Part shown: one piece after another, positions 12,925 through 60,685 of the stretch
Layout of the letters: every line of letters starts with the position of its first letter
Numbering within the stretch: the first letter of the stretch is position 1
Assembly (NCBI GenBank): GCA_014904845.1
Contig: MU119277.1
Coordinates: forward strand, 62,001 to 126,000
Length of the DNA stretch: 64,000 nt
Reading direction: 5' to 3'
Origin: Acephala macrosclerotiorum
Lineage: Eukaryota; Ascomycota; Leotiomycetes; Helotiales; Mollisiaceae
Translations under genes and position numbers: made by a program
The notes under the pieces: model-generated
The model's database searches: none
What the model was told of the DNA's origin: nothing
Seen by the model: only the letters and a program-made list of their open reading frames with translations

Positions 12925-12936
12925 TATATATTTAAA
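12925..12936 (+). promoter_or_regulatory. TATA element upstream of the tRNA gene
   Basis: The sequence TATATATTTAAA lies about 31-42 bases before the first mature tRNA base. That position suits the upstream TATA element that assists TFIIIB at many fungal tRNA genes. Confidence 0.5.
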
Positions 12937-12972
12937 GAAGCACTCTGGCTTCCGACAATTCAAAAAGGCACT

Positions 12973-13019
12973 GTAAGTTCAACAATTTAACATACAAGTG
13001 CCTCGCTAACAATTCTCAG
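12973..13019 (+). other. Intron 1 of tRNA-Ser (47 nt, GTAAGT...GCTAAC...CAG)
   Basis: The donor is GTAAGT, the branch site CGCTAAC (13004-13010) and the acceptor TCTCAG. This is a textbook ascomycete mRNA intron of usual length. It falls between tRNA positions 6 and 7. It lacks the bulge-helix-bulge context expected by the tRNA endonuclease. Confidence 0.75.
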
Positions 13020-13070
13020 TTGGCGGAGTGGTTAACGCGACAGCCTGCTAAGCTGTTTCCTTCGGGAGCG

Positions 13071-13121
13071 GTTAGTACTCCCCATTCTCAATATTGGTAA
13101 TCACAGCTAACCAATCTACAG
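13071..13121 (+). other. Intron 2 of tRNA-Ser (51 nt, GTTAGT...GCTAAC...ACAG)
   Basis: The donor is GTTAGT, the branch site AGCTAAC (13105-13111) and the acceptor CTACAG. It interrupts the T stem after position 49. Removal rebuilds the stem base by base. Confidence 0.75.
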
Positions 13122-13153
13122 TGTGTTCGAATCACACAGGTGTCGATTACTTC

Positions 13154-13172
13154 TTTTTTTTTGGTTTTTTTT
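13154..13172 (+). terminator. RNA polymerase III terminator (T9 GG T8)
   Basis: Nine T residues, two G and eight more T begin nine bases after the discriminator base of the tRNA. This is a strong Pol III stop on the coding strand. Confidence 0.75.
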
Positions 13173-27499: not shown

Positions 27500-28406
27500 T
27501 CATTTTATGTGACCCTGGAACAATTTTCCGGTGGGAGCAAGCGGCGCTCCATCCACATTGCTGTAGAACACAAACGCTCTGCAATCGATACTTTCCCTTG
27601 GAGGCTCCCTCGAATCTATGACTTTGGGGTTGTAGAACCCAGCGTGTGGACATGCTACTAGCGTCAGCTAAGACTTGCATCTCCACTAAAAAGTGTTTCG
27701 TATCGCCTCGAGCAAGTGCAGAATCAGCGCTTTTAAAAAGCAGTATCTCTGACGGATCATGGTCGGCCAGATAGTACCAAGAATGGTGCTCATTGTATTG
27801 CACTTGCATGTTCTCTGTTACCCAGTCTGGATAAACGATATCCCCCGCCATAGTATCGTCTTCGAAACCCACCGTTCTAGAATCGCAGAGGCCGAGTGGC
27901 GTCGCCGAACCTGTGAAGCACCAGTTCAGTTACACTTTTTTCCACTTCTTCTTTCTTGGCATCTTCAACACATACAGCAAAGTCCATTATATAAACCCAC
28001 GAAGCGCCCATCTGGGATCTGAGGCCTCCTGCCACCTCCTTCAAATAAACTGAGGCGACTTTCGATGGGTCGGCGAAGTCGTCATAGGTCATCTTGGAAG
28101 GAAAATTCCACAGGCCAAAGCCGCAGTCCTCGAACGATGGGAGTGTTGCGCAAGACCTCATATTCTTAATACGCATACGTCGTTTATCGCGCTTGATGTT
28201 TGATTGAGGCAGGCCCCTGAGCGGCGGATAGCGCATACTGTAGGGCTTGACGGAGGAGAAAACCGGGTCGCGAGCAAGGAAATACATGTCTGTTTGCACT
28301 GCATCTCGATAGTCTGAATGGGAAATGCAGAGAATTATAAGCTTCCTCAAGTAATGAATGCGCCCAGCAGAAGACATCAAGCTTTCTTACCATCTCGTTG
28401 TGCCAT
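27500..28406 (-). pseudogene. CmcJ/NvfI/EfuI-like oxygenase, internal deletion
   Basis: The minus strand carries a gene of the family containing the cephamycin protein CmcJ and the fungal 2-oxoglutarate-dependent enzyme NvfI. Exon 1 is 28391-28406 (MAQRD), and exon 2 starts at 28313. Matches in order are MYFLARDPVFSSVKPYSMRY, GLRSQMGASWVYIMDFA, then VRRRHSA after an intron, followed abruptly and out of frame by PLGLCDSRTVGFEDDTMAGD. Then come TENMQVQYNEHHSWYYLADH, CPHAGFYNPKVIDSREPPRE and AFVFYSN. About 70 family residues, including the histidine/aspartate iron-binding segment, are absent at the junction near 27890-27903. The stop is at 27500-27502. An intron before CPHAGF appears to need a non-GT donor (GAG|GC). 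The gene is almost certainly non-functional. Confidence 0.75.
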
Positions 28407-28631
28407 GTTTCTTGATCGACTGTAGCCGTTTGGAATCCTTTCTCGAAGTTGAACAAGAGTAGAGGGATTGAAATTCTCCACCACAAGTAATGTTCTTGAC
28501 CACATGCAAGCACTACCTTTGCACAAAAGAGGATATTACTTGAAAGTATGTAAATGGTCTTATCGATCATCGAACCACGGTACGCAAGAGTCGGCCCTTG
28601 ACTCTCGTGGTGCTTTGAGCCGCAGATAACA

Positions 28632-28655
28632 GATGCCGATGCCGATGCCGATGCC
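28632..28655. repeat. Microsatellite (GATGCC)4
   Basis: Four perfect copies of the hexamer GATGCC lie in non-coding DNA upstream of the oxygenase pseudogene. Confidence 0.9.
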
Positions 28656-30184
28656 GCCTCCGGAAAGCTGCTTTACACACGAGGAGGATGCAAGCGGCCT
28701 ATGACAACACTTGGAAAGGAGTATCGTATTGCTTCTAACCTAATCGAGGACAGTCAGCGAACACTACCTCTCACCACTCTCAACACGACTGAAATTCTCG
28801 ACTACTAAACTTATAGATAAACAAAGAGGAGGACTTGGGAATAAGTAATACTATTGGTGTAATCTGAGGCTTTTTATGAATTCTTTTCAATAGAAATCTA
28901 GAGAGTTCTTCGATTAGACTGCTCGCAAAAAAACCATAGAATGTAAAGCTCTATTTTTAGTCTTTTATTTATAGAGTTTTATAGAACTCCATTTAAAAAT
29001 AGAATATTTATAAAATATAATATTATTATTTTAAATTAAAATTAATTTAATTATGTAATCAAATCAAAAATATATTAAATAATTTAATATTTTGAGTTTT
29101 TTAAATAAAATTTTATGTAATTTATAAATACGTAAAATAATTTTAAATTTATTATAATATTTATTAATTTAATTAATAAAATAATTAATAAAATAAAATA
29201 AAATACGATTTAAATTAAAGTTTTAAAATTATTTAAATTTTAAATTTTAAATTAAATCGCATATAAATATTTTTTTTTTAATTTTTTTTTTAATTTTTTA
29301 TTATAATTATTTTTTAATTTGCGAATCGATTTTTTCGATTTTTAATATATGAATATATAAATATAAAGTCTTTAAAAGATTTAATTAAATTTGGAATTAA
29401 TTAAACGATTATCGAATAAACGAGTAAATTGTAAAAATAATAAAAATAAAAATAAATTAACTTTTTATTATATTATTTTTTAATTTGTAAATCGATTTTT
29501 TCGATTTTTTAAATATAAATATATAAATACAAAGTTTTTAAAACAGTTTAATCGAATTTAAAATCGATTAAACGATTATTAAATAAATAAACAAATCGCG
29601 AAAATATTAAAAATAAAACGTTTAAAAGTTTAACGCTTGAAAATTTAATAATTAAAAACTCGATACTGTAATAAAATAGTATTATCGATTCGTATTGAAT
29701 TAGTTTAATACGTGATCCGTTTCTGGATATAAGAAATCTAATATTTTGTAATTCTAGAAAACAATCGAATATTTTTTACTTTTTTACAATACTCGATTCA
29801 ATATTCGATATTATTTAATTCGAAATAAATATTATAAAAAAATAAATTTGAAATTATATAAAATTTTATTTAAAAAACTAAAATGCAAAATATCGAATTA
29901 TTTAATATATTCTTAATTTAATTACGTAATTAAATTAATTTTAATTCGAAATAATAATATTAATTTAATTTTATATTATTATAATAAATTATATTTAAAA
30001 TTTTTAATTATAATTATATTTATTATTTTATTATTTTTTTTATTAATTTTTTTAAATTAAATTTTAATAAATATATTTATATTTTTATATAATTTATACA
30101 TTTTTTATAAGTCTTTTATAAAACTTATAAAAAACTTATAAATAAAAAAAAAATTTTAAAACTTTATTTTATGAGTTTTTTATA

Positions 30185-30393
30185 TGTAAATATAATATTA
30201 GTGCAATAGTCACGTGCAATACTAGGCTGCATTGGGACTAGTCCAACTGCGCTAAAATTGAAATTATATTATTCAATTTTTGTGCAATTTTTAAAGAACG
30301 AATTACTTTATACGCATATTAAAAACTAAAAATTTTATATACGTTTTTTGTTTTTTTTTATTCGAATAAATATTTTTTAGTAAATTAATACTA
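30185..30393 (+). repeat. Left LTR-like direct repeat
   Basis: This is the more degraded 209-bp copy. Differences from the right copy are mostly C-to-T or G-to-A, as expected for RIP. Confidence 0.65.
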
Positions 30394-30789
30394 ATTAATA
30401 ATTATTCAATTAATTAAAAAATAGTAAAAATCATTTTTAAAAAAAATTGAATTACGAGAAAATATTATATTTATTTTTGTAAATATTAAATTTACATTAA
30501 AAACAATATTTATTTATAATTCGATATTGATATTTTTTTTTTCTATAATTTCGAATTAAATTACAGTGATTTTTTTATTGAATTATCGTTTATTTCGATT
30601 AAATTTATCGACGTAAAACAAATATCTTTCGAATATTCTACGAAAATTCAATTTATAAAATATTTTTTAAGTATTCTACGAAAACTCGATTTACAAAGTA
30701 TTTTTCGAGTATTCTATAAAAACTCGCATTTTATTTACAATTATACTTTGTTTACAAAAAATTCAATTATAAAAAAATATTGTATTTAC

Positions 30790-31044
30790 TGTAGAAGGGC
30801 AATGGAGCACAAAGCAAAAAGGCCCAACCGTAGGTCAGTTCGTCTTAGCCAGTGGGCTAGACTCATCCGAAGTAATCCGTAATCCGTAAATCAATCAATC
30901 AATCAGTCAGAGTAGAAGTAGAAAGGGTTGTTGATTAGTCTATAGTGAGCGAAAGCTCCTTATGTACTAGAAGACACGTGACCAGCACTGCCCTCGAAAC
31001 TAGCTATTTACAAGGATTTTGAAGGGAGAGCATATAGCCCCACC
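30790..31044. mobile_element. Unmutated ~255-bp insertion with target duplication
   Basis: A segment of normal base composition sits inside the RIP-like block. It is flanked by TATTTAC on both sides (30783-30789 and 31045-31051). It starts TGTAGAAGGGC, contains (AATC)3-4 near 30891-30910, and ends AGCCCCACC. It has no ORF. A solo LTR or a short non-autonomous element fits best. Confidence 0.6.
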
Positions 31045-33461
31045 TATTTACTTTTATAAAACTACGAGAAAATATTATATTTATTTTTATAATCGTCGAA
31101 TTTATAATTAATAACGATATTTTATTTCGATAAATTTTTTTTACAATTACAAATCAATCGATTTATAATACGCGTAAAAAATACTATTTTACGATTCATT
31201 TAATAAAACGTCGTTTACGATTCATAAATTTTTTATCGATTTATAAATTACTCGTAAAATTCTAATAATCTCAATATTAATTCAATTAATTTTATATATT
31301 CAATAAATAATTAAACTTCGAATCAAATTCTTAAAATCGATTTTATAATTATATATAAAAATACTCGATCGTAAAATTATTAAACATTTTATTTTTTCAA
31401 TTTAACAAAGAAAATATTATTTGATTTCAACGCGTAATAATAATTTTTTTACGTTTTTATAACAATACTCGAATTATTATAATTCGAAATAAAATAAAAC
31501 GTATTATTATTAAAATTGAAAAATATAAAAAAATTTGTAATCGATATTTAATTTTATCGAAAAATAATAATAATTATAATTTAAATAATATTTAATAATT
31601 GAATAATAATAAATAATTCAAAGTATAATACGAAAAAAACTTTAAATACTTTATAGAGTTTATATTATTCGCAATAAAAATCGTAAAAAAAATATTAAAT
31701 TTAAAAAATATTATTAATATTTTTCGAATTTTATAATTTCGAAATAAATTTAATTTAACAAAGAAAAAAAATTATACAAAAAAAAAAAATAAAAAAATAT
31801 ATTATATATTATTTCGAATATTATAAAAAAAAAATATATTAAAACTATGTACTATAAAAATATTTTAAAAATGATTTTAAGAATTGAATAATTGAAATTT
31901 TTATTTTAAATTCGAAAAATTTAATTAAAAATTTGTAAAATTATTTTCGATTATATAATTGTTAAATATTTATCGATAAAAAATTGATTTTTGTAAATTT
32001 GTAAAAAATTATAAATAAAGAAAAATATTACGAATAAATAAAAAAAAAAATTAAAAATTAAACGAAATATGAAAAACTATATTCGCAATAAAATTTTACA
32101 AATAAAAAAAATAAAAAATTACTAGAAAAATCGATTAAAAAATCGATTAAAGAATTAATTAAATCTCGATTTCAAAATACGATATTTTTAATATTTCAAA
32201 TATTTGTTTTTAGATTTTAAAATACGATATTTTAAATACGTATTTTTAAAAAATAATTTGTTTAATATATTTAATTTGTTTTATTTCAAAAAAAAATAAT
32301 ATTAAAATTAATAATTGAAAAACGTTTTTATTAATAAAAATATAAATAATAATATTATTAATAATTTTAAATTTAATTCATTGAAAATAATTATCGATTT
32401 AATATAATTATACAATAAAAACTTAAAATATAATAAAATATTATATAATATTATTAATAACAAATTACGAATTTTTACGATTATTATTAAAAAATTAATT
32501 TAATAAAAAAATATTACAATTAAATATTTTTTATTATATTAAAAAATCGAATTAAATTTTTTTATTATAACAATATTATAAAAAGAAATTACGATTTTAG
32601 TATTATAATCGATATAATAAGAATTTATTTCGAGATTAAAAAAAATTACTAATTGTATATATTTAAATAAAAAAAAACTATTTTTCAAAAAATTATTACA
32701 ATTAATCAAAAAAAGTTTTATTTCGAATATTTATAAATTTTTTTTGATCGATTCGAAAAAATCTAATAAAAATTATTATTTAAATATTAAATAAAATATA
32801 ATTTCAAAGATTAAATTATTAGTATTTATAAAAATATTAAAAAATATAATTTGATTTTTTATAATTTGATTTTTACATACGAAAATATATATATATAATT
32901 GAAATTTACAATCGATATAAAAATGCGAACTCGAAAATTTAACGCTTATAATATGCGAATTTAATTCGATATCGATTACGATTATTACGACGACGACGAC
33001 AATAATAAAAACAATATACGTATTTTATAATTATATTAAAATTCGAATAATTATATATATAAAAAAACTACTAAAAATAATAAACGTAAATAAAATAAAA
33101 AAAAATACAAATAATAATAAAAAAAATATATATATATATTTATTAAAAAAAAAAAAAAATTTTTTTTTTTTTATATTATATTTTAACGTTATATTTTTAA
33201 TATTATAAATATTTGATTTATAAAATAAAAAAAAAAAAAAATTACTTTAATTTTAATATTTATAATTTTCAATGAACTTCGAAAACAGTACTAGTTTATT
33301 AGCGTTATTTTCAAAGTTTAATCACATAATTTTTATATGATTTTTGCATTAGAATATTAGTAAGTTTTACGTATCAACGAATTACGATAAAAGAAAAAAA
33401 CAAAAGTATTTAATTGGTTGAATTGAACTAGTTGCATTTGGTAGAAAGAAAAAACTGTTAG

Positions 33462-33670
33462 TGTAAGTATAATATTAGTGCAATAATCACGTGCAGCACT
33501 AGGCTGCATTGGGACTAGTCCAACTGCGCTAGAGTTGAGATTATATTATTCAATTTTTGCGCAACTTCTAAAGAACGAACCACTTTATACGCATACTAAG
33601 AACTAAGAGTTTTACGTGCGTTTTTTGTTTTTCTTTATTCGAATAAGCATCCCCTGGTGAACCAATACTA
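33462..33670 (+). repeat. Right LTR-like direct repeat
   Basis: This is the better-preserved 209-bp copy, at the edge of the AT-rich block. The sequence returns to normal composition just after it. Confidence 0.65.
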
Positions 33671-33871
33671 TAAGCAGTCTATTTTCGACGACATGGGAAA
33701 TTATTTAATAAGATCTTGAAAACAGTAAATCATTATTTGCTTGGATTAAAAAGCTTGAGTGGAGAATTTGCAACTATTACGCTTGTATAAGAGTAGTTTC
33801 TACGTTTGCATAAATGATTGTCTAAAACTATCTTTCGTTCGAAACCACAAAGCCATCGTCGTTTGGATCCC

Positions 33872-34240
33872 TTAAACCATAATCACTAGTATCGATCCAA
33901 TCGTTCGTATTCTCTTTACTTTCATGCTTCCAATTAAGGAGGAATTTCCTCGTTTTTTTCTCAAAGCATTTTCATCGTGCTCCTGTGTAAAGGACTTCAA
34001 ACCGGGCTTCACGTCTTTACCCTTACGCAAGCCATAACTTCGAGTGAAGCCTTTTAACTTGAGATTATGAATATCGGAAAGCACTTCGAAGTAGTTGGGA
34101 AACATGTCGTCTGTGCATAATGGAACGGGACACTCCATTGGATCACGTTAGCGATAAACCTTCTCGTGAGTCTCTATATGCCGGTTGAATGTCCCTCTGT
34201 TCGCGAATTTGGTAAAGCGTTTCGAGCATTTCGTTTTATT
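33872..34240 (-). pseudogene. Fragment of a C2H2 zinc-finger protein
   Basis: The minus strand reads KCSKRFTKFANRGTFNRHIE then THEKVYR, a C2H2-type finger half, then an in-frame TAA. The frame stays open through MECPVPLCTDDMF, LSDIHNLKLKGFTRSYGLRK to the stop at 33872. The second part has a Cys-x4-Cys and a spaced His that may be another finger. Nothing readable precedes or follows, so this is a truncated gene remnant. Confidence 0.5.
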
Positions 34241-34340
34241 ATTGAAACAAGATCTTAGATCTCAGATCTTAGTTCCTATTGTTCGTCTATAGAGTCAGCT
34301 TAGAGATCTCAGATCTCACTCTTCAGATTCTCTCAGCTTT

Positions 34341-34406
34341 TGATGCTAGAGTAACTCGAGATTATTGAGATAGCTCAATTCTCCTCAGTCTATGGTCGTA
34401 TGTGAC
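34341..34406 (+). repeat. Direct repeat, copy 1 (66 bp)
   Basis: It begins TGATGCTAGAGTAACTCGAG and ends TATGGTCGTATGTGAC. It matches 35899-35964 with about eight differences. Confidence 0.75.
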
Positions 34407-34688
34407 AGAAATGTTATTAAAACAAATATTTACTTCAGAAGCTTGAATAGTTATACCCAAATTCTCCTCGCTCTCTGGTGAGGCAGACCCAAATCCGAGA
34501 TCTTGTAATTGGTTACTTTGACCTTGAAACTAGCTTCTCATTGCCGCTTTTTTACAACTTTTAGCCAAATCCTAGGACGTGGGTCCGCAAATGCTACTGC
34601 CTAAACTGTCAGCGGCATATGAAATCTCGGCGCTCGAGACGTAGATCCTGTAGTCAAACAGAAGGGGCCGCCTATTCTAGTGTCAACT

Positions 34689-34805
34689 TTAGGCATGACG
34701 CAGTTGGGGCAACCCACAAACTTTAGCAATCTCAATATTCTCAAACTTACTAATGATCATATCACGAATCATTCCGTGTGGTGACTCCGGAAGATTTGGA
34801 GCCAT
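34689..34805 (-). mobile_element. N-terminal fragment of a Tc1/mariner-type transposase
   Basis: A 38-codon stretch reads MAPNLPESPHGMIRDMI and then IEIAKVCG. It resembles the start and helix-turn-helix of fungal mariner-like transposases (MxxNLxxSxHxxIRDMI...). It stops at 34689, and no catalytic DDE domain is seen nearby. Confidence 0.5.
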
Positions 34806-35129
34806 CCTAGGGAGCTGCTTTTGCGCGATAAAGTGCAGCTTCTTGGGTGCTCTCGTCAACACTTTGCGATGCCCAGGAACTGTAGGTCTCGTGATCATGA
34901 TTTGTCCTACCTACGAGCGCCATTGGTGAGACTGTCTCAATTGTCTTCTCTTCCGGAGTATCATTACTTTCACTATGGTCTAATATCAGTTGGATAGTAG
35001 TAGCAGGTCGAAATGGTAGGGAAACTCTTATTCCCTCTTTCCCTGACATCGGTTTTGATGAACCAGAAGTGGTAGCTTTTAACAGGAATAGCAATATTAT
35101 ATACTTACGCAGAGTACATCAGTTCCCAC

Positions 35130-35549
35130 TGTGGCGGAATGGCGTTATCAATGGCTCTAAAGTCTATGGATCGAAAACAGTACCATTTGTGCTTTAGTGT
35201 CTTCAGTATAATGCGCTCTATAAGCAAACCAAACGACGATTCAAATATCCACTCCATGAGATTTTTCAATCGGCCCGAAGAAGGGATGCCTTCCTTCCAC
35301 GCTAGGCAAGGCAGATCATCGTGAATATATTGAAGAAACCTATGATACCGTGAGCGATCACAAAATATCTAAACAGCTGAGCTCCTTACTCCTTCCACAG
35401 ACCCTAGAGTCGGAGGTAATGCTTGCTCGTTGGCTTCACGACGGGCTGATCATGCTTCGCTCTTGTGTATGCTGCTTCTTTGTTTTATGCTTCTTCACGT
35501 GTGATGGGAGCGGGCTGGATGTTGAATTGTCGATGGATGTAGACTCCAT
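35130..35549 (-). other. Possible remnant of a minus-strand gene
   Basis: An ATG at 35549 opens a Ser/Lys-rich N-terminus (MESTSIDNSTSSPLPSHVKK). After a possible intron ending CATAG near 35342, an open frame reads LPCLAWKEGIPSSGRLKNLM, WYCFRSIDFRAIDNAIPPQW and ELMYSA, followed by a GTAAGT donor-like site. I recognise no family and could not build a complete gene. It may be captured host sequence within the repeat-bounded segment 34341-35964. Confidence 0.25.
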
Positions 35550-35898
35550 TGCCAGAGGTGATTACAAAAGTTGAAAAAGTTGGAGGAATGGTTTTGAATC
35601 TGGAGAAATGATAGACTAGAGGAAATAGACGGAAGAAATAAGGAGAAGGTATTGGAGAAAGGAGAGATATTAGTGGCACAGTCGATGGCCCAAAAAGACT
35701 CGTAATCACTCATTCTCAAAAAGCAGCATCGTTGTATCGAAGTATTGGAAATCATGTCACAGAATTAAATGAGGCAGAATAAAATAAAGTTTTCAATGAG
35801 TGCTCTTCTTGAGATCTACGATACTATTTCTCAAATCTTGATTTTTTTTGGAAGAACAAAAAACATTGAACTCAGATTTTATGTTCACTCTCTAGATA

Positions 35899-35964
35899 TG
35901 ATGCTAGAGTAGCTCGAGACTATTGAGTTAACCCAATTTTCCTCAGTCTGTGGTCGTATGTGAC
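35899..35964 (+). repeat. Direct repeat, copy 2 (66 bp)
   Basis: It begins TGATGCTAGAGTAGCTCGAG and ends TGTGGTCGTATGTGAC. With copy 1 it bounds a 1.5-kb segment holding the transposase fragment and the unassigned minus-strand coding remnant. Confidence 0.75.
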
Positions 35965-36399
35965 AAGTGATGAGGTTATTTATTTATATATTGACTTGCT
36001 CAGCTGGCAGCGAACTAGAGGTGAACTTGGGGGAGGACACTTCAAAAGAGCGAGTGAGGGAGACCTTTTTAAATGAAGAAGGCATCTTTGAGGCGAGAAC
36101 ATGGATGATAACGTGCTGTTATCGTATTGGTTGTGGAAAGAAGATAGGAGGTGTAACACGTGATTCAAAGTCCGAGCTAGTGTTCGTGCTAATTCACGGA
36201 CAGGATATCAGACCATCAGATAAACACACAAATATATTTTGATGAGAAGAAGCCTAAATACACAGTTGCAAGGAAATTGAGAGGACCATGTGGTACAACA
36301 GGAGAAAGACGCTTTACTTTCTCGTTCAATCAACAAAAAAAGAATTGAAGTTAAGCGGAATGTTTGAAGACAGTGGCGGCAGCAGAATCCACTTAATCT

Positions 36400-46259: not shown

Positions 46260-49200
46260 TCATTTTCTGCCGTCCTTGATGATTCGTGGCAAGAAGACTG
46301 GCACGCTTCCAGCTTCCAACGAATCCAAATACGCAGCTACCATCTCATTCAGCCCAGCTGCCTTGGCTTCCGCTAACCAAGTGTGCAAAGACCTGCTTTG
46401 AATCTTCCTGCCAGTTTCCTTCTCCAAAATCCTCCTCATCTTCGCAATCGGCATATCAGCCTTGCCTGCATGATGTAAGAACACCAACGGCGGGGTTCCT
46501 ACCCGTCCAGGACTCAGCACCTCCTGAACAAGGTCGAGAGCAACATCATGCACAGGCACGAAGTTGAGATAGCCCTGCACGGCTTTGAGTTTGGGAACGA
46601 TGGCGATTTTGCGGGAGAACGTGAGGAGGTTGGTCATTATGTCGAGGTCCGGTGCACCTTCGCCGGTGATATTGGAAGGGCGATGGATCCAGACAGGGAG
46701 GTTGTACTCCTTGCTTGCCTTCTCCAGGAGTTGTTCACTGACCCATTTGGAGGAGATGTAGCCTGCCATACCATTCACTGGTGGGGAATACTCGCGCATT
46801 GAATGCTCTTGGAAGGTTTCTTGGCCTGAGAGTTGGCCCACACCGGCACTGGAGACGTAGTGGAAGGGTATTCTGTGTTGTAGACTGAGTTTCAGAAGAA
46901 ACTTGGTGGCTTCGACGTTTGTCACTTTCAATGACTGGTAGGTCTTGAGGAATGACACGTCGGCGCCGTTGTGGATGATGGTATCCGCTTCGCTGAAGAC
47001 TCTGTCGATCGTTGCTTCGTCAATTGCAAGATTAGGGAGCGATAAATCGCCAGAGTGAACTTCGACTTTCCACGACTTGTTGAGGAGAGAGTTCCTGCTT
47101 TGAGAGCTGCGCACAGCGATGCAGTAGACTTTCTCCACGTTGCGGTCTTCCAGAAGCTCGGCAAGGATTGCTTGCCCGAGGAAGCCAGTGGCCCCTGTCA
47201 AAATGACTACCCTCACAGGGTTGCTGGACTGACTAATGACACTGTTGCCTCTCGCAAGGGAAGCGAATTCCAACGGTAGTGTGGTCTCCAGCTCCCAGTT
47301 GACGACCGGATCTTCAAGCGCTGCGCCTCCAGGCAGACTCTCAATTTTCCCTGCCATCCCACCCAGAGTACTGTGTTCAAATAGTGAAGCCAGAGGGATC
47401 TCGACACCAGTTTCGTCCTTGATCTGCTTTTGCAACTGGACTAGCATGAGAGAGTTCCCACCAACGTGGAAAAAGTCTGTCGCAGTAGTTATCGAGAACT
47501 GATTTCCAGTCCCAGCGGGAAGCACTTGTTCCCATATCTTCTTGGTGCGAATCTCGGGTTCAGTGAGTTGTGCTGATTTGGTAATTGACCTAGGAAGTGG
47601 AAGCTCGCCAACGCTTCGCCGAGATACTTTGCCGGAAGGTGCTACGGGAAGTTGATCGATAGGGACGATCTGAGCTGGTATCATGGATTGTGGTAACTCG
47701 AGCTTGGTACGCAACTTATTCAAGAACTCTTCCCGATTGCTCGTACTCCCGTCGTTGAAGACAACATGAGCGGCGAGAAACTCTGAGCCCACACCAAAAT
47801 TTCGGACCGAAACGATGACATCTTGGAGAACCCCGGAAGATGATCTGATGATTGTCTCCTCGATGTCCTGAAGGTCGATTCGAATGCCCCGCAATTTGAT
47901 TTGGGTATCTCCGTCAATTCGGCCCTCAACGATGAGTGCTCCGTCAGGAAGAAGACGGCCTCTGTCTCCCGTGCGATGCGCTTTGATCCAGCCCAGCTTA
48001 ATGTGTTCTGGCGATGTATAGTTATCTCTGAAAAATCGCTCCGTCGTCAACGCCTCATTGTCCAAATAGCCTGGGGACACACCAGAGCCGCCTAGAATGA
48101 TCTCGCCAGGAACACCAGCTGGGACGGGCCGCGAATCTCTATCGACGATATAGACTGAATGTGCTGGAAAGGTTTTGCCTACGGGAATGACTCGCTCCTC
48201 GGTTTCGGAACTCGGTATTGTGTAGTTCAATTCTGATGCATGGGATGCGATAGTGATTTCTGAAGGGCCATAGGCATTGAACAACTTCAGATCCGTCTTG
48301 TTGATATCGTGGAAGGTTTCGAGCAGAATTTTCTTCACCTGTTCACCTCCTGCAATCACGGCCCTCAACTTGGAAGTTCGAAGCCGATTCAAAGTATCAA
48401 TTCGATGCAAGCTGATGAGCTCAGATGGGGTAGCGGTAACGAGTGAAATAGCCTCATTCGCAATCAGATCTAGTATGGCACCAGAATCACCACGAGCGTC
48501 CTTTGGAGCTATGACGAGCTTTCCTCCATTACCAAGTGCCCAAAACACTTGCCATATGTGCATATCGAAGCTGTAAGCTGTCTGTTGGAGAATAGTCTCT
48601 GCACCTATGTTGAAGATCTGCGTGGAGATCTCAATCTGGTGAACAAGACCGGCGTTTGTTAGGCTGATACCCTTCGGAATTCCAGTAGTACCGCTTGTGA
48701 AGATATGTACAGCGATTGACTCTGGCTTGGCGTAGTTGTTGATCCTCCTGGACGTTGACAGCGAAAGGCTCGAAATGTTGATAACGTGTGTAGAAGATTC
48801 AACTTGAAGGCCGACCACCAGAGGAATTGTCTGCTGATGGGCAAGAATTACTTTCGGCTTAGAATCTCTGACAATGAGAGCCAGTCGCCCGATGGGGGTC
48901 CGGAGATCTAGAGGAACATACACTGCACCAATTCGGAGCACAGCCAAGAACGAGGCTGCCCAGTCAGAAGTCGGATCTTGGAAAACCCCAACGGTTGACC
49001 CGACTATAGCACCAGAATCCAGGAGGGCGACAGCAATAGCGTCGGCTCTTTGAGACAACTGCTTATATGACCATTTGTTCCCCAGGTCATCCGATATGGC
49101 AGGCCGATTGGCATGTGTGCTCGCTATTCTATCCACTTGGTGTGATAATGTTGGAGCCCACGTGAAATTTATGGTAGGCCCTGGTGTCATGTTAGCAACA

Positions 49201-52200
49201 TGCCTAGAAGTGCATTTTGAGAACTTGCCTCTGCCCAAGTGGAGAGCATTCTGGATCTCATCTTGACCATATAATGGCGCCCTCGCCACCTCTTGAGCTG
49301 GATTCCGAGAGAAGTTGTCCAACAGGTTCACGAAACTTCGTTGCAATAACTCCCCGTCACGCTCTGTGTATAGACTCTGCTGTACGTTGAATGCAAGCAA
49401 AGGAGCACCCCCAATATTGTCGACAACATCGAGGGTGATGTCATATGCGGTGCGACCACTCTCAAATTGGAGCCCATCGGTTTCGCAACCACAGAATGGT
49501 CGATTCTCTTCAACGCCTTGTCGGTAATTGAGGAAGACTTGAAACAGAGGAGCGTAAGTCGCTGATCTTGGGACATTGAGTTCCGAGAGTAGTATGTCGA
49601 AGGGGACACGTGCATTGGCAAGGGCCGCGTATGATTTGTTCTTGGCTTCCTTCAAAGCATCGCTGAATAGTTGCTTTTCTGACCGCCGGAAGCGTAGCGG
49701 AAGCAGATTCAAATAGAAGCCAATACTGTTTAGAGTATCGCTGTCATATCTGTTCCCGTCTGCGATACCAATTGAAAGATCGTCAATGTCTAGCTGGCGA
49801 AAGAGGAATATCCTCAAGACGGCAAGGTAGAAATGGAACGAAGTCGTCTTGAACTTACGGGCTGTCGCCTCAATTCGTTTCCCCAGTCCTTCAGGGATAT
49901 TGAAATCAATGCGATGAGATGCATATCTTGTTAAGCGTTCGCGCGAAGTCTTCCTTGAGACTGGTAAGATGGGAAGAGCTGGTGGGAGATCTGCGAACTC
50001 CTTTCTCCAGAATGACAATTCGCTCGAGAACTTCCCTGCCTCGTAGTCGTGAAGTTGTCGTAGAGTGAAGTCATCGTATTGCAGAACACGGTCTTTCAAG
50101 GCATCTCCGTCGTATGCTCGCTGGAGATCGGACAGTAATATCTCCAGGCTGATGCCATCCATGTTAATATGATGATATCCGATAATAATCTGATGAGAAT
50201 CTTCCGACAGAGAGAGAAGTCTAATCCTCATCAATTCGCCTCGCTCCAATGCGAATACATGCTCCTTCATTCTTTGGAACTCTGACACAATCTCGCTATC
50301 GTTTTGTATGTCGCGCTGCTCCAATTGAAGAATGGGTGACGAGAGAATGCCTTGTTTTGGTTGCTGGTTTTGGTCGAGGTAGAATGCCGTTCTTAATGCT
50401 CCGTGCCGCGCACCAACTCTCTTGACGGCCTGTTCAAGGGCAGATACATTGAGTTTCCCTTTCAGCCTGATTGAACAACTGATGTTAAACGTTGTTTGAT
50501 CTTCGAGGTACTGTCTGAGGAACCAAAATCGAGACTGACCGAATGACATGACTAAGGTGCGCTGGACAGGGTTGTCAGCAGACTCGATAGAGCTGTTCAA
50601 GTCTGAATCTGACAGCGCATCCCAAGACCCGATAGACCCTTCTGACCTCTCTAGTGAAGGAATGTCCCTCTGAGATACATTCTCCGAAGATGGAGTACTG
50701 GCAACTTCGTTGTTCTGCAATGGAGGAACGCTCGGCAGTGCTTGGTCAGGACTCTTGACTCGTTCATGCACGACTTGCTCATTTGGGCTTGAATGTTCTG
50801 TCGAAAATTCCGCGATCTTAGCTGACCCCTTTGACTGTGTTGCCGGCGGTTTTTGAAGTTGCGCAGTGGCAGCAGTAGCGTCAATGTTCCCACCATTGTT
50901 GGGAATGAGGTCGCTGGGAATTTTCTCCAGTGCAAAAGAGAGCAATTCTCCTACAGTAGTGCCACCTAGGATCTTGAGAACAGGCATGTCCACTTGAAGT
51001 TCCTTTATGAACCACGTCCGAATCTCGACGGCGATGAGCGAATCGATACCAAGCTCGTCTACACCAGAATCCAAGTTGGCAAATCGTTGCTCCGCTTCTT
51101 CGGGGCTCATCTGAAGAACCGCTTTCAATTTAGCGATGAACGATGCTAATGCAGTTAGAAGCCGCGAGTTTCCAGGTTCAGAAGTCAACTTACATCTTAA
51201 TATGTCAACAACTTGCTGCTGATCAATTGCTCCAAGCAACTGTACCTTCACAGGAGCACCAGCACTTGTTGTTGATGTCCCAGCTGCAGCGCCTTCTTGG
51301 TGAATAATGAAGTGGCTGAATCTTTGATTGTCAATCCACGTTGGGCGATCGTCTCCATTAGCATCGATGAGGCGAAGGCCAGTCATGAACTCATGACTTT
51401 GACCAGATCCCGGGCTGCTGCAAACAACGGCTTCGGCAAATATCTGATGGAAATCCTGTTCCGACATCCACACGTTGCCGTAACTTCGAAGTGCGTTTTG
51501 CTGAGCTTGCGTCAACTCTCTTGTGATATATCCATTCCCAATAATAGCACCAATATGTATCACGGACGCTGCTAAGCCGCGCTTCCTACGCTGAGCAGCC
51601 AGACCAACCATAAACCTGTTCGTCAAGATCTCGAAGTTAGTTTACTGTTTTTGGAATATTTGGGGATTGTAGATGCATGTCTTAGGAGTGCGTCCGGAGC
51701 ACAGCTGGAGTGCATAAAGAGTGAACACTCCGAGATAGCACGAAAAGGGAAATAGTTCTCCGAGAAATTGACACTTACATATTTGCCGCAGCGTAATGAG
51801 ATTGTCCTCCATTGCCGGTCACGGATGCTACAGATGAGAAGAAGACAAAGAAGTCGAGGACCTTGTCGCCAATAACTTCTTGCAGATAAATACTGCCATC
51901 GACTTTGGGCTTCAGCACTTTCTGGACCTTTTCCAAATCTAGGTCTAGAAAGAGTGCATCGTGAAGGACCATGGCACCTTGAGCAATGCCTGCAAGGGGA
52001 GGGAGAGTAGCTGTGATCTCGTCGTAAGCCAGTCGGACCGACTCCTTGTTCGTGATATCGCTGGATGTCGAAGTTAGCACACCACAAAGCAAATTGGTTG
52101 AGAGCATACTTCGCAAGTATTCTGATGGTTGCCCCAAGCGCAGACAAATCCTCCAGCCACCTGTCATCGACTTTGGGGTTGCGACTTGAAAGAACAACGT

Positions 52201-55200
52201 ATCGAGCACCGTGTTGGACCATCCATGTGCACAAGGATTGGCCCAATCCACCCGTCAAACCTACAAGCCAATATGTCTTTTCTTTCGAAAAGAGGGTTGT
52301 AGAATCGATAGGCTCGATCCGGACATCAATTTCTTGAGTTCGGCTCCAGTCCAGGATTGTGAGTCCGAGGTTCTCTGAGGTTTTCTTTCCGACGTCAGTC
52401 ATTTGCAAAACCCCAAAGTCTACTGCATGTGACGCCGGCAATTCTGAAAGCACATTTTCTAAAGCTTTCGCAAGAAATGCTCCAGCAGGCTTTTTTGGAA
52501 ATTGCAAGGCTAAATGTGAAGTCTTGCTAAGTAGCGTCTCGAGGGATTGAACTTTGGAGTAGGGCGGAAGATTATCGATGATGCGGCCGGCAAAAACTGA
52601 ATCTTCCGAGAAATTGACAAAAAGCGTCAAATCTTGGGGCAGTAGTGCCTTGATGGTGCGATGCGGTGCCTGGGGGTGAACGTGTGACCATGAAGACTTA
52701 TCGGAAGCCGGGGAGGTCGTGAGAAACTGAACTCTAACTCCAATCTCAGCTGCGAGTTGAGAAAGAACAATGCCAAAGTATTCGTTCGGATCAAGAACCA
52801 CGATAACGCCGCCGTTAGAGACTTCTACAAGGATTCTTGCCGCCAAGATATGGTGAAGCAGTCTTCCAACAACCTGCAGTTCGTTCAGTGTGGGCGAGAT
52901 TGGTACAAGGTCGTTCTTGGGCACCCGCAATTTGGATTGGAGATTTGGTGACAGAGCAACGAATGATTCTCCAAGGCTGTTGTTGCCGAAAATAAGAAAC
53001 AAGTGACTCCCTTGGGGGGTGCTAACAGCCTGGATAGAGGAGAAAGTCACGTCGAGATCGACATAGACATCTTGGACATTGCCGATAGATATCCATTCTG
53101 GCAATGCGCGGATGACATATGCCGATCTTTGCCACGAGACTGTCAAAACAGATTTGGAAGTCTGAACTCGTGCGGAGATAGGACGTTTCGCGGAATTATA
53201 CCGGGCATTTCGAGATGGATCGAGCTTCAAACGAGGAACCAATTGAAGACCATTGTCTAAGGCGAGTTCGGGCTCCAAGGGCCAAAGTGCGTCAAGTTCT
53301 CGTCCACCTAGCTGCCATGCACCAACTGCCTCAGAGCGTAAGAATGTTTCCACAATACCACGAGCATCAACTTTGTTGGGAGAGCCCAGATCCAGAAACT
53401 GGAGTCTTAGATGAGGCAATTCGAGAAGCAAGGTCCTTCCAAACCCAATGGTCATGCTTGAAAATGGGCTGTCACTTCTGGCTCCCCTTGTGACCCAGAG
53501 AACAGATTTCGATTGCTCAAACACCATTTTCACAGCTTCCAGTTTCACAGCCGAGATGGATTTGAAAATCGGCTCATCCAAATCGATCAAGCTGATAACA
53601 GAGCCTTGCCGTGGCAGCTCAAAATGAGCGACTGTGTCCAGAGTATCGATGCGGTGGATATTACCAACAAAGTGACTTGTGAGACCGATGATCTCTCCGA
53701 GTAACTGCAGCGAAGATGAAGTAACCCCACCAAGGAGTGTCAGATGCGGAATTTCAAAGTCGAGCTTCCCCGATAATAACGGTTGACGAAGGAACGTGAC
53801 TCGATCATCAATTGCCTGAGCAGCAATTACCGACAAAGGGTAAGGTAGGGGGTCCAAGTCGGGAGTAATCGTCTCGATGCCAGCAAATCCAGTTTTTCGA
53901 AGGAGTGCATCCCACTCCGGTGCGGTGATACAAGGAGACAAGATACGCCCATCGTCTCGTCCAAGCCACCACCCAGGAAGCCCGCCAAAGACAAACCCGA
54001 GTCGAGCCTGACCATTGTTCGTAATCTCCAACATGATTAGGTGACCTCCGGGCTTCAGCAGACGACGAGCATTTTTCAGCGTCTCCTCGAGATCAACCGT
54101 CGCATGGAGGACTAGAGATGCTATGATCAAGTCAAACGAACCCTCTTCGAAATTTTGCAATGTGGGGTCGTTCTCAATGTTCAATGTTTTGAAGGCAATT
54201 TTCGATGCAAAGCTTTGGAATACAATCTGGGCGTTTTCGAAGAATCCGCTTGATATATCCGTAAAGACATAATTAGCGAAAGTCTGGCCCAGCTCTCTGA
54301 GGATCGATTTGGTAGCTCCTCCAGTGCCAGCACCTACTACATGTTAGACCCGAGACCCATACGGGATAGGGCGCCATACCAATTTCTAGGATTTTCAGGT
54401 CGGGTTTAGAGTGAGCGATTTGGCCAACCATTCGGGCGAGATATTCTGTGTACTCATGGAAGCCAAGAGCATTGATGTAGTAGTCATTCAACATATTGTC
54501 TTGTAGCATATGCTCCAGAATGGTGGTTTCACCACGAACAACTGCCGGGAGATGCTCACCCACCGTGTGCATGATACGCAAATCTATGCTCTCAGGGTGA
54601 CTGAATTATGTTAACATACAATCTGAATGCTGTAACGAACTGCTTACCTCTCAATCAGTGCCAAAATTTCTGCATGTGAATCTGAAGCCCATTGCTTTTT
54701 AATGTATTGGTGCTTACCACTGGCCACTGTTGACAAGACGTAGTCTACAAAAGTGAAGAGACTTTTGTGATGCGCCTGAAAGTTTACCCGTAGATCATCG
54801 GAGATCGCTTGATCCAGCGTACGGAGATAGTAGTAGGCAACGCGCTCAAAAATGTATGCCAATTCATAGTGGTCTGTTGTCGCTCTTCCGTCCCATGCAA
54901 CGGCATCCCCATCGGGAGAAGCTCTATCCCAAATCATCTGGGAGAAGAGGTGGAAGTCATTGGCAGCGGTGGCCTCTGAAAAGGGTTTAGCTTGCATGCC
55001 TTCGAGCTGAAGCATTGTGTGTACTCCGTCAGATGTGAAAATGTCAACATCCCCATCAATCACTGCTTGATCGTTGCTGTCAATCGTCGCATCGAATTGA
55101 AGATACTCTTCAGCACTAGGAGCTTTCAGCCAAAGTGCAGGATTGACTCGAACACGTCTGATGTTGGTTGGTACATGGATAGACCAAAGTCTTCCATCTC

Positions 55201-58200
55201 CTGGCCAGCAGAAGGCAAGGATGATTGACTGAATCGCTGCGTCTAAGGTTGCGGGGTGTACCAAGAGCTCAGTACTTGGGTTATTGCTGGCCTTGCATAT
55301 CTCACCAGTCGCAGCACCTAACTTTCTCTTCAGAGAAGAAAGAGCTTTGAATTTTCCAGAGTATTGGTACCCGACGTCGTCCAGCGACGAGTAGAATCGG
55401 TCAGGAGGAACATCGGTGAGATTGAAAGCTCTTTCAGAAGACCTCGGGGGAAGGGCGTCTGTCGTTGCATCGCCTAAATCGTATCGTAATCTACCACTGC
55501 AGTTCAGAGATAGGTTCTGAGAGTCGTGACCTGTGTGTGAGTGGAACGAGAATGCCGCGGATACACTGTCCTTATTTCGGACAATGCCGGTAAGTGAGAA
55601 AAGCGTTTCCACGCTTGACTCCTCCTCATTGAACGCTATTGCTTGACCAATATCGATATCTTCAAGCTCGATCAGCTTGATTTCATTGGTCCCTTCAATG
55701 GCGCGTATTGATTCGAGGGCAGCTGCAATATAACCTGCACCTGGAAACACCATTTGACCCTGAATTCGATGTCCAGATATCCAAGGAATCTCTTTAGGGC
55801 GTAGGACATTGTGCCATTGTACTTGATTTTCGGCACCATCTACCGAACGAGTGCCGAGAATCTCGTTGATTCCTTCTTTTCGTGTGCGATATGCTTTAGA
55901 GACTCGGGATTCATGCCAAAAGACACGATCATGATCCCACGAGTATATTGGCAGATTCTTCAAGAGCTTGCGACTCCCGTAAGCAGAAACGAGGTCATCG
56001 TAATCAGAGAACGACACAACAGATTCTCCAAATAGCTTCCACAGAGACCCCAAGGAGTTGGCAAGCGCATGGATATCATTTAACCCACGCTGTAATGTAC
56101 CAGTATATGCAAGGGCATCCCCAGAAATAGCCTCGATGGTTTGCTTGACAGGTCCTTGTAATGCAGGATGCGGCCCAACTTCAATCGCGACATCAAAGGG
56201 TCCCAGCTCAGTCACAGCTAATTCAACAGCCTGCGAGAACAAAACAGGATTGACCATGTTGTCATTCCAATAAGTATCGGAAAGATGTTTTGAGCCGCGA
56301 ATTTCTTGCACCGTCACACTGGAAAACCATGAGCACCGAGGATCTGGCGAACTGAATGGCTGGATACCACTGCTTCGGAGCGACGCCAAATACGCATCAG
56401 AGGCCCGTAGCATGTGGTGCGAGTGGTAGGCCTTATCGATTCGCAGACGTCTAACGAATTTTCTCTCCTCTTCTAGGATTTCGAGTGCCTCTTGGATGGC
56501 ATCCTCATCTCCAGATAGAGTCACACTTGCTAGCGAGTTACTGGCAGCCACCGTGATTCGTCCCTCAAAAGCTGGCAGGGATACCAATTCCTGGGCATCC
56601 TCCAGGGAAGTCCCTACAGCAATCATGGCACCTTGTTGTCCAGCAGGGCCTGATGCCAACTTGGAATGGAAGCCTCTGTAGTAAGCAATGACTATAGCGT
56701 CTTCAGGGGTTGCAATGAGTCCAGCTGCATACGCAGCGGCAATCTCTCCCGAGGAATGACCAACAACTGCCTTGAACTTGATTCCCGCACCACGAAGGAG
56801 TTCCACGAGCAGAACTTGTATTGCGGTGCATAATGGCTGCGAGATCGCTGCTTCGCCTACACGTGATATCGACCCCTCGGCTTGCAACTCTTTGAGGAGT
56901 GACCACGAAGGTCGATCCCCAGAGGGAAGTCGAGCAAGTCTCTGTTCCAGGCGGTTTATGAGTTTCCTGGCGAATTCTGATCCTAGGACTAGAGCTTTCC
57001 CCATGGTCGCCCACTTAAGATTCCGGTTAGAATACTGCTTCCAGATAAAGAAATGTGTGAAGAATGAATGCCTCAAGATTGGCGAGAAATTTGAGACTAA
57101 CCTGGGCTCCCTGTCCGGTAAATATTCCAATAATTTTTGGATTCGCACTAGCTGAGTACCGCGCGGTATGCTCATCGATAAGCTTGCCGGAGTTCGACTT
57201 GGCAGCTTTCAAAGTATCGCTTATTTGAGTCACAAGTCCATCGACTGAAGAGGCAGCGAAAATTATCCTTGATGGCAACGCTGATCTTCTGGAGCTCAAA
57301 GTCCAGCTGAGGTCCCGGAGGTTAACATTTTGATTGGCCTTCAAATAGGCGGCGTAGGCGGCCAGGTTTGCTGCAAGAGAGCGCTCTGTAGTGGCCGAAA
57401 AGGCGAATGGGGTGAAGATCCGAGTATCATGGTTGAGTCGTTTCTGCAGAGTCGTTTCTTGAGGCTCATATCGCTCGAGGATTGCATGGCCGTTAGCGCC
57501 TCCAAAGCCGAAGCTGTTTACACTGACGCGACGCGGTCCGCCGTGAGTGTCGGGCCAATGTTGAGCTTTTGTGGGTATGTGAAGATTCTCATAGAAAGGT
57601 GCTACGGCAGGATTGAGATTCTCGAAGAGCAAGTTGGGCGGCACAATACCATGTTGCAAGGCTAGCGAGGCCTTGATAACAGCTGCAAGTCCAGCAGTAC
57701 CTTCCGTATGACCAACAATTGTCTTGATAGAGCCTGTTGATCGAGATCTCGGAGTCAGTTTATCGCTTTTGTATATCTTGGTAGCAGGGATGCATGTATT
57801 AAGAGTGGGCTTGGACTAAGGAACCTAGAGGTAGCATGAGGGTGCAAAAGTTCTCCAAGAAATTGATACCTACCAACGTACAGAGTTTGGTGACCGTCCT
57901 TTCCATCCCCGAAGAATGCCGTGCTAATAGCCTCGGCCTCGATTGGATCTCCCTAGATAGCGGGGCCAGTCAGCAAGTTCTCCAAACCGATTGATCTGGG
58001 AGACTTTGGGCATCTCCTCCTTGAAAAATCACAAGGCCTTTTGAAATAGGAAATAAATTCTCCCCAACACTTACAGCAGGTGTACCTGTGCCGTGGGCTT
58101 CAAAAAATTGAGGCCGGTCGCAAGGTTTGCTAAGGTCCAGGTTTGCCTTGGCATAGGTTTCTCTGATCAAGGCGGCCTGGGCGATGGGACTGGGCATCGT

Positions 58201-59440: not shown

Positions 59441-60685
59441 CTTGATATCAAAAAGGCACGTTAAGCAGGTAAAGTTGCCTCCTTGGTGACAGCGCCTGTT
59501 GACGGCGACAACGATTTATTATGGCAAAAGTCTTCAGTTCTTGATGTTGAATGCGATGACTGATACCATCCATTTCCCATTTCAACTTTGCTATATCAAT
59601 CAAGCACTGTCTTGCACTTTCCGAACCAGACCTGAGTCGGGTCGGGGGACGATATCGCCATGCCCGATTTCCGACTATATTAGGATGGCCGAAGTGCGAA
59701 GTCGAGGGTTCAAATTGTGGAGTAGTTGTTTGAGTTCCTTTCACAACCTCACGTGCGTTGCAATGATCGCATTAGTATCGCAGTGTAACCTTACCTGCTT
59801 GGAACTAGGAAACAATAAGCTCTACCATGTCACTCCATGCATAGTATTACTTTCCAGCTTTACCTATTATTCTCAACCTCGAGTGTGCCTGCTTATCTCT
59901 TCTGAACCGAGTTCGCATGTCTTCGGGGTCTCCGAATTTCGGGCTGCAAGCACATGCAGTCAAGCCAAACGAAGCGCTCCGAATACTGTCAGTCCGGAGA
60001 TCTAATCAAGCCAGTTGCGTCCGTATCTAAACCCCAAAGGTTTAAACGACTTTAAATGGTGTTGCGCAATCGCATCCTTCGGGTGCTCATTCCAGCAATT
60101 TACCCGTGGTGGTGGTGGGGTTGAGGTCTCACTAGTACAGCGGAAGGTCGCTGGAGAACCCCCGTGCAAAATGCAGGGCTTTAAGAGGGTAGTTCGTGGA
60201 GGAATCTCCGAGAAGAGAGATCTCCCATTGTACTCCTTCTCCATTTGACTGAAAATACTCTATCGGCATTCTTTACCTCTTCTCACGGACGTGCAACACG
60301 ACCTTAATGGCGAGCGACCAAACTCTAAATTGCGCCTCGTCCAGCGTGCCTGCGGGTGCTTCCATGCTAATGCGCTGCACAGGGCCGCCAGAGGTGCATA
60401 AGTGGCGTGGACGTGGAGGTTTGTGTGCTTGAAAGCACTACCACCACCATGTGAGGGACCTTACATATAGTTTGGTACTACTTGTCCATGAATCGTTCGG
60501 GTTCTTCCCACTGCAGCAGGTACAGAAAACCAATATCTTTGGGTTGTCACACGCTGAGCTATCCGCTGCGAATCAAGTGGCCCCGAAAACCCGCAGGCTG
60601 CCTAAGTCGAACTGCATCTGCGGCGAACCCTTCAAGGAATCACCCCTCCTACCTGGCACAATTACAGAGCACCTCGAACTAGAAG
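59441..60685. promoter_or_regulatory. Bidirectional promoter between PKS-NRPS and regulator
   Basis: The two start codons are 1245 bp apart, pointing away from each other. CCGAA occurs at 59621, 59689, 59932 and 59979, and TTCGG at 59922, 60078 and 60496, about three times chance. The best candidate site is the palindrome at 59922. Short ORFs in this region show no motif. Confidence 0.5.
59922..59936. promoter_or_regulatory. Palindromic site TTCGG-N5-CCGAA
   Basis: The sequence is TTCGGGGTCTCCGAA. It is an inverted CGG/CCG pair with fixed spacing, the usual form of a binding site for a dimeric Zn2Cys6 factor. It is 486 bp from the PKS-NRPS start and 749 bp from the regulator start. Confidence 0.5.

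Follow-up and report, generated by a model that had tools for sequence, protein, structure and literature searches.

Spliceosomal introns have their normal place in Pol II transcripts, and some of the introns in the nuclear rDNA of lichen-forming fungi are spliceosomal. Canzler et al. in 2016 reportedly described spliceosomal introns of fungal U6 snRNA. According to PMC5832005, no small structured RNAs other than U3 and U6 are known to have an intron often, and fungal U3 snoRNA genes have normal spliceosomal introns whose presence may differ between paralogues within a species. Introns in the nuclear rDNA of lichen fungi are described in PMC8527467. In PMC4090602 and PMC13149111, the introns that the tRNA-splicing endonuclease removes from nuclear tRNA genes are placed one base beyond the anticodon and depend on tRNA structure. 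PMC4090602 also states that the non-canonical tRNA introns of archaea and of the red alga Cyanidioschyzon rest on BHB-type motifs, that those of a nucleomorph are 3–24 nt long with a removal route that is not known, and that eukaryotic tRNA genes with D- or T-arm insertions are supposed to be mostly pseudogenes, nucleomorphs and the red alga excepted.

We found no nuclear tRNA with spliceosomal introns among the papers listed in searches of open-licence literature. The original prediction for the present locus had named fungal U6 as the precedent and had known of no established case in a nuclear tRNA. The mechanism has a precedent in the spliceosomal intron of the Pol III RNA U6, and the class of nuclear tRNA intron described here appears to be without one in that literature. 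The DNA analysed is a stretch of 64,000 nt from Acephala macrosclerotiorum (the window), lying in the contig labelled C76 of a 69.66-Mb assembly of 778 contigs. We read window positions 12967–13145, at a probability of about 0.87, as a nuclear gene for tRNA-Ser(GCU) that carries two spliceosomal introns of the U2 type, and as one of at least 21 such tRNA genes in this genome. Intron anatomy, an intact product, the presence and absence of introns between paralogues, and constraint on exons and not on introns are observed in the DNA itself.

The split tRNA-Ser(GCU) gene

ARAGORN reports zero tRNAs in the raw, unspliced window, and the locus still receives no call when anticodon-loop introns of up to 150 nt are allowed. 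Rfam sees a partial tRNA only in the unspliced gene (model positions 7–64, 31.3 bits). After removal of 12973–13019 and 13071–13121, and only then, ARAGORN folds a full cloverleaf, an 81-nt tRNA-Ser(GCU) with a serine anticodon and a long variable arm; the proposed dependence of the cloverleaf on these two removals is exact to the base. All stems pair in the ARAGORN drawing as had been claimed, with 7/7 pairs in the acceptor stem (two of them G-U), 5/5 in the T stem and a complete anticodon stem.

On the forward strand, exon 1 (12967–12972, GGCACT) forms positions 1–6 of the acceptor stem, by sequence and ARAGORN fold. Intron 1 (12973–13019, 47 nt) follows tRNA position 6, runs from GTAAGT to GCTAACAATTCTCAG and contains GCTAAC; the same site is interrupted in paralogues on contigs C89 and C183. 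Exon 2 (13020–13070) reaches from acceptor position 7 to the first base of the T stem and includes the A box, the D arm, the anticodon GCU (13047–13049 in the ARAGORN fold) and a variable arm with UUCG. Intron 2 (13071–13121, 51 nt) follows tRNA position 49, runs from GTTAGT to GCTAACCAATCTACAG, again with GCTAAC, and is found in the C89 paralogue and not in the C183 paralogue. Exon 3 (13122–13145), placed in the same way as exon 1, supplies the remaining T arm, the acceptor 3' strand and the discriminator G, and contains the B box GTTCGAATC (13125–13133). Both introns show the GT donor, branch site, AG acceptor and intron-like length that had been attributed to them, the branch-site A lying 10 nt (intron 1) and 11 nt (intron 2) before the intron end. 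The ARAGORN fold also agrees that they interrupt the acceptor stem and the T stem, outside the anticodon loop; neither is at position 37/38, as endonuclease introns are. For this gene our splice pipeline (see below) accepted two double-splice solutions that differ in the 5' site of intron 2, and GTTAGT was taken as the donor because it is the sole choice yielding the sequence read in the paralogue that lacks intron 2.

Upstream by 25–42 nt is a TATA-like Pol III element, TATATATTTAAAGAAGCA (12925–12942), with one mismatch to the genome consensus TATADATTTAAATAAGNA. A T9 run, a probable Pol III terminator, starts 9 nt past the gene (13154–13162). The A and B boxes, upstream element and T9 run of the original prediction are all present in the sequence. 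As a separate observation, exon 1 is complementary to AGTGCC within intron 1 (window 12967–13006), and the unspliced 5' end can fold onto the intron; AGTGCC is absent from intron 1 of the C89 copy.

Paralogues, the genome-wide set and intact isoacceptors

We then investigated the whole assembly with a Ser(GCU) pattern of 26 fixed bases. At up to three mismatches, the window gene and two further genes alone match. The second gene (C89:100485–100685) is interrupted at both of these sites (GTAAGT.., 51 nt; GTAAGC.., 49 nt) and also has a 20-nt anticodon-loop intron. The third (C183:107960–108109, minus strand), which a DNA similarity search of the genome missed, carries a 50-nt intron 1 and a further intron of 19 nt in the anticodon loop, and is without intron 2. 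A looser pattern returned the three genes at zero mismatches and 14 further matches at two, with 4 for the reversed-pattern control. Two of the 14 were inspected: the match on C259 (L160) proved to be no tRNA, and that at C17:233469 belongs to a known Ser(ACU) gene. A pattern for the 3' end added a fourth match with two mismatches (L165, C88:149770–149850), in which the region from the anticodon stem to the 3' end is present with an anticodon-loop insert and without intron 2. No D arm, 5' acceptor strand or candidate intron is seen in the 321 bases examined there, and this copy is taken for a 3'-half Ser(GCU) fragment. Several normal tRNA-Ser(GCU) genes, together with no spliced RNA from the locus, would have spoken against it according to the original prediction; the genome-wide patterns give three close genes, all split, and the fragment on C88.

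Exons 1 and 3 of the window and C89 genes are identical, exon 2 differs by two compensated anticodon-stem pairs and the anticodon-loop intron, and both introns are only 65% identical. Over all paralogues, introns are 57–66% identical, against an average of 57% for randomly paired, unrelated introns of the set. Among the four Lys(CUU) genes, identity is 93–98% in the joined exons and 60–66% in the introns. The anticodon stems of the three Ser(GCU) genes compensate (ACAGC/GCTGT, ATGGC/GCCAT and ATGCC/GGCAT). We aligned the three spliced Ser(GCU) genes with one gene each for Ser(ACU), Ser(UGA) and Ser(AGA), leaving out the Ser(ACU) gene on C30, which is one base longer. Here all 144 cells pair, 13 of the 24 pairs show a change in both partners, and neither value was reached in 500 shuffles; the measure 'further pair types' was reached by 34 of 500. 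In these comparisons the exons behave as sequences under constraint and the introns do not.

Some introns can be compared directly with an uninterrupted copy. Removal of GTATGT..TAG from an interrupted Trp gene (L050) gives the sequence of an intact Trp gene (L028), letter for letter, over 24 nt around the junction, and removal of intron 2 from the two Ser(GCU) genes gives the unbroken C183 sequence in the same manner, also over 24 nt. For the other introns, no uninterrupted junction of 16 to 24 nt was found among 164 loci, except in a 3'-half Leu fragment inside L077. Four U6 genes were found (L152, L162, L163, L164). The one on C261 (L152, C261:61639 onward), with a UUCG 5' hairpin, has a 52-nt spliceosomal-type intron between GGAT and GACACGC; a copy on C37 reads CTAAGGATGACACGC across the intron site without an intron, and two more copies lack GGAT at this site. 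The 3'-half fragments without spliceosomal introns, namely Ser(GCU) L165, the Leu fragment in L077 (near position 2943) and a Glu fragment in the 3' flank of L051, could be truncated copies or be derived from spliced RNA. Intron presence and absence between near-identical paralogues makes gain or loss traceable, and the correct product is known to the base.

The catalogue comprises 30 GT-AG introns of 47–59 nt in 21 tRNA genes, with sites in the acceptor stem, D arm, variable region and T arm. Ser(GCU) is represented by three genes, Lys(CUU) by four and Gln(UUG) by two. One gene each was found for Lys(UUU), Glu(UUC), Glu(CUC), Trp, Arg(UCG), Arg(CCU), Leu(UAA), Leu(CAG), Met and Cys(GCA), as well as for Arg(CCG), with three introns, and Ala(AGC), with two. 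A genome search with Rfam RF00005, which scored 63 of 2302 candidates and missed at least 7 intact genes seen later, gave at least 48 matches, 37 of them over the cut-off. Judged by ARAGORN and by alignment to the Rfam model, 33 of these carry no interruption or an anticodon-loop intron alone; of the others, C276:28356 is degenerate, and a Trp (C108), a Lys (C151) and a Glu (C96) gene are interrupted outside the anticodon loop. All 11 matches under the cut-off were inspected, and ten are interrupted genes (the other is L045). The tally of 21 split and about 40 intact genes (the 33 and 7 more, L148 excluded) is no census, because genes were found partly through intron signals.

Our splice pipeline removed one or two segments of 38–75 nt that fit GT[ATG]N[GT]..YTRAY..[CTA]AG, and submitted the remainder to ARAGORN with anticodon-loop introns of up to 40 nt. 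The input was 113 segments, made up of 96 loci with the upstream Pol III element, 15 interrupted- or weak-looking Rfam loci, the window gene and the C89 copy. A junction-spanning tRNA appeared only after removal in 17 of them (11 with one intron, 6 with two). Zero tRNAs resulted from the reversed segments (297 + 251 removals), from the reverse complements (157 + 98), from 339 dinucleotide shuffles (756 + 663) and from 630 tiles covering both strands of the rest of the window (926 removals of one GT..AG segment and 460 of two). With all four control sets at zero, a chance origin of the split tRNAs was ruled out.

Four genes were added outside the standard run: Lys(CUU) L056, Leu(CAG) L077 and Cys(GCA) L115 were solved by hand, and Ala(AGC) L122 with wider ARAGORN settings. 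Isotype names were assigned partly by hand; ARAGORN labels L054, L055, L057, L142 (at two introns) and L049 differently, in our reading because of anticodon-loop or further introns. Two or three single-splice solutions each were accepted for L047, L048 and L049, and with anticodon-loop introns of up to 150 nt ARAGORN calls L047, L049 and L050 unspliced as other, unlikely tRNAs. Anticodon-stem mismatches remain after splicing in Lys(CUU) (T-T) and Ala(AGC) (C-T), and the boundary of Ala(AGC) intron 2 is shifted by one base in the intron statistics. L148 entered the pipeline as a shorter segment only and so is missing from its output. Two candidates were kept out of the 21 as not clean enough, namely L118, to which ARAGORN assigns Ile-UAU with two introns and whose proposed exon strings were not matched, and the initiator-Met-like L045. 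L091, L135 and L147 are tRNA-like by eye and without a solution; in Rfam, L147 reaches 28.0 bits (under the cut-off) and the other two give no match.

Among the isotypes with split genes, intact genes exist for Trp (two), Arg(UCG) and Arg(CCG). Two intact Ser(ACU) genes (L010/L040, C30:193023–193104, and L035, C17:233425–233505, both on the minus strand) are near the split Ser(GCU) genes in sequence. They might read AGU/AGC, and the need for the split Ser(GCU) genes is therefore unproven. An A34 in the AGY box is unusual; if turned into inosine, that of Ser(ACU) might also read the Arg codon AGA. With patterns that see close copies only (up to three mismatches, whole genome), Lys(CUU) is found in four split genes only, Lys(UUU) in one, Gln(UUG) in two and the 3' half of Cys(GCA) in one. 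A divergent locus on C249 (L148:347–423, minus strand) is called Lys(CUU) by ARAGORN, with a 4-nt loop insert, all stems paired and three G-U pairs in the acceptor stem; its Rfam score of 34.3 bits exceeds the cut-off. Possibly this is a Lys(CUU) gene that is intact though diverged, or else a related gene whose anticodon has changed.

These intact genes bear on the idea that intron-like insertions have struck the split genes, leaving them as dead copies, with the tRNAs supplied by other, intact genes. The intact Trp, Arg(UCG), Arg(CCG) and Ser(ACU) genes and perhaps the Lys(CUU) locus on C249 would suit it, as would the 3'-half fragments of Ser (C88) and Leu (L077), and further intact genes may be missed given the share of candidates scored with RF00005 and the intact genes it passed over. 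Dead copies, however, should not keep near-identical exons and compensated stems while their introns drift, and the close-copy patterns find Lys(CUU), Lys(UUU), Gln(UUG), Cys(GCA) and full-length Ser(GCU) in split genes only. We consider dead copies very unlikely, and prefer to read the loci as tRNA genes with spliceosomal introns.

Intron signals and the proposed transcription and order of processing

All 30 tRNA introns begin with GT and end with AG, with a median length of 53 nt. In the donor, position +3 is A in 25 of them, position +5 is G in 28 and position +6 is T in 21. A YTRAY branch site with its A 9–16 nt from the intron end is present in 26/30 (mean 3.3 and maximum 9 in 1000 shuffle rounds), a count favoured by the less strict branch-site filter used to select the pipeline genes; those that Rfam had found first (L043–L057), chosen without an intron signal, show the same signals. 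By eye, the remaining four introns have CTAAA, CTAAG, CTCAT and CTAAT, with the A 7–12 nt from the end. The window also contains a GMC oxidoreductase gene, whose closest named proteins are from Rhexocercosporidium (83%), Mollisiaceae sp. DMI_Dod_QoI (75%) and Mollisia scopiformis (73%). Its introns, placed by means of a relative (P0002), read GTAAGT..TTTTAG (64 nt) and GTATGT..CCCAG (52 nt), and seven further strict-consensus candidates of 48–62 nt were recognized in the window by signals only. The window tRNA introns resemble these protein-gene introns in signals and length. The spliceosomal reading proposed at the outset gains support from this likeness, from the U2-type signals and from the set of 30 introns in 21 genes, and we regard removal of these introns by the spliceosome as strongly supported at the level of sequence.

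Other classes of intron were considered. No group I or group II intron family has an Rfam match in the window, where RF00005 alone reaches its gathering score, and self-splicing introns were ruled out by this lack of a match; 47–59 nt is far too short for group I or II self-splicing introns. The tRNA-splicing endonuclease might instead cut the inserts as ectopic introns, as in red algae, nucleomorphs and archaea. The genome encodes the endonuclease (two PF01974 loci), and among named proteins its subunit, compared over 435 residues, is closest to those of Mollisiaceae sp. DMI_Dod_QoI (72% overall) and Mollisia scopiformis (75% over 91%); like the GMC oxidoreductase, it points to a helotialean fungus. 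Several split genes also carry ordinary anticodon-loop introns, and PMC4090602 reports ectopic introns in tRNA genes of other eukaryotes. A strict 4-bp BHB central helix, however, occurs in 0 of 30 junction pairs, which is absence and not depletion, as about 0.8 of 30 is expected by chance from cross-pairing. GT, AG, the G at +5 and a branch site at a fixed distance play no role in the endonuclease pathway, and removal by this enzyme is judged highly improbable for the GT-AG introns.

We then investigated signals for transcription. The consensus TATADATTTAAATAAGNA was read by eye from 30 tRNA loci and has 493 genome matches at up to one mismatch, compared with 224 for the reversed control. The exact matches listed were taken as L064–L159 (96 loci) or fell on loci already in the set, and many are Pol III genes other than tRNA. 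Most split loci carry this element, common to U6 and intact tRNA genes, and are followed by T runs. Within the introns, T runs of at least 4 occur in 1/30 (dinucleotide-shuffle mean 6.9; as low in 1 of 1000 rounds) and runs of at least 5 in 0/30 (mean 2.2; as low in 50 of 1000 rounds). This rarity is compatible with Pol III and not specific to it, because protein-gene intron candidates of the window are also without runs over 4 (none in nine strict candidates, intron 1 of the window gene included). In the Lys(CUU) genes the B box is split (GGGTT and CGAGCC, or CGAACC in one copy), and an exon of 9 nt lies between two introns. Directly 3' of all four tRNAs (L054–L057) is a conserved CAATTCCCGA(A/G)TTCATGAT, and the tRNA end together with this stretch reads GGCTCAATTCC, which is B-box-like. 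A downstream, external B box is thus possible for these genes; yeast SNR6 has a downstream B box.

Excision of the tRNAs from Pol II transcripts would place mRNA-type introns where such introns normally occur. The upstream element shared with intact tRNA genes and U6, the T runs behind most split loci, and the A and B boxes of the window gene argue against this origin, which appears exceedingly improbable. In the preferred reading, Pol III would transcribe the window gene from the upstream TATA-like element and the A and B boxes and would stop at the T run, as these signals suggest. The spliceosome would then remove the 47- and 51-nt introns from the nuclear precursor, as for fungal U6; splice signals, conservation and precedent point to this step. 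RNase P and tRNase Z would act after the spliceosome, as would the tRNA-splicing endonuclease on paralogues with an anticodon-loop intron, because the acceptor stem, D arm or T arm forms only after splicing. Since the endonuclease is present, both splicing systems would serve the same precursors. The cell must probably send many split tRNAs through the mRNA-splicing machinery.

The element also precedes loci of other kinds. Nineteen of them, linked by shared 16-mers, look like one RNA family (L064, L070, L071, L078, L081, L088, L092, L094, L096, L097, L100, L116, L126, L130–L132, L136, L151 and L154); a search with L064 from this family gave no Rfam match at E 0.01. Smaller groups of 2–5 loci also exist. 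In one non-tRNA family (L072, the overlapping L089/L090, L113 and L114), a B-box-like GGGTTCAAATCCC is accompanied by an apparent intron of the family's own, GTAAG(C/T)..CTAACA..CAG, at a single site; for L072, L089, L113 and L114, Rfam gives no match at the same threshold. Elsewhere in the window, 28001–36000 is AT-rich (GC 0.23–0.30, flanking regions 0.42–0.50), and 46260–59515 contains long minus-strand ORFs that by eye are hybrid PKS-NRPS-like.

Relation to known systems

The boldest reading, to which we give even odds, is that in a fungal lineage the spliceosome has come to mature a large share of the nuclear tRNAs. Isoacceptors that are essential, such as Cys(GCA), Lys(UUU) and Gln(UUG), would then be encoded only by split genes, and genes with two or three such introns and an endonuclease intron would need two splicing machines in a fixed order, making translation directly dependent on the spliceosome. 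The possible intact Lys(CUU) locus on C249 weakens this reading. Such genes would escape annotation tools, and this may account in part for the low tRNA counts of some Helotiales; PMC11678538 reports Helotiales genomes with only 50–52 tRNA genes by tRNAscan-SE. ARAGORN misses the window gene even with long anticodon-loop introns allowed, an example of how tRNA finders under-report. Many nuclear tRNA genes with spliceosomal introns would link tRNA supply to splicing, and they provide a natural setting in which to study spliceosomal handling of a Pol III RNA whose exon pieces measure 6 to 9 nt.

Endonuclease introns likewise occur in nuclear tRNA genes, and some genes here carry one as well; in contrast to them, the introns described here are GT-AG introns with branch sites at other positions. 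The nucleomorph, Cyanidioschyzon and archaeal introns (PMC4090602) resemble the present ones in lying in D and T arms and in occurring several per gene, but the latter have no BHB helix, are 47–59 nt long and bear spliceosomal signals. The lichen rDNA introns (PMC8527467) also interrupt a non-mRNA nuclear RNA, although that RNA is a Pol I transcript and not a tRNA. Fungal U3 is similar in having normal spliceosomal introns in a structured RNA, with paralogues that may differ in intron presence; its introns are almost all in one 5' hairpin according to PMC5832005, unlike the tRNA introns here. Fungal U6 snRNA, represented in this genome by the gene on C261, is likewise a small Pol III RNA with a short GT-AG intron. 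U6 is no tRNA, however, whereas here such introns are found in many tRNA isotypes, at many sites and with up to three in a gene.
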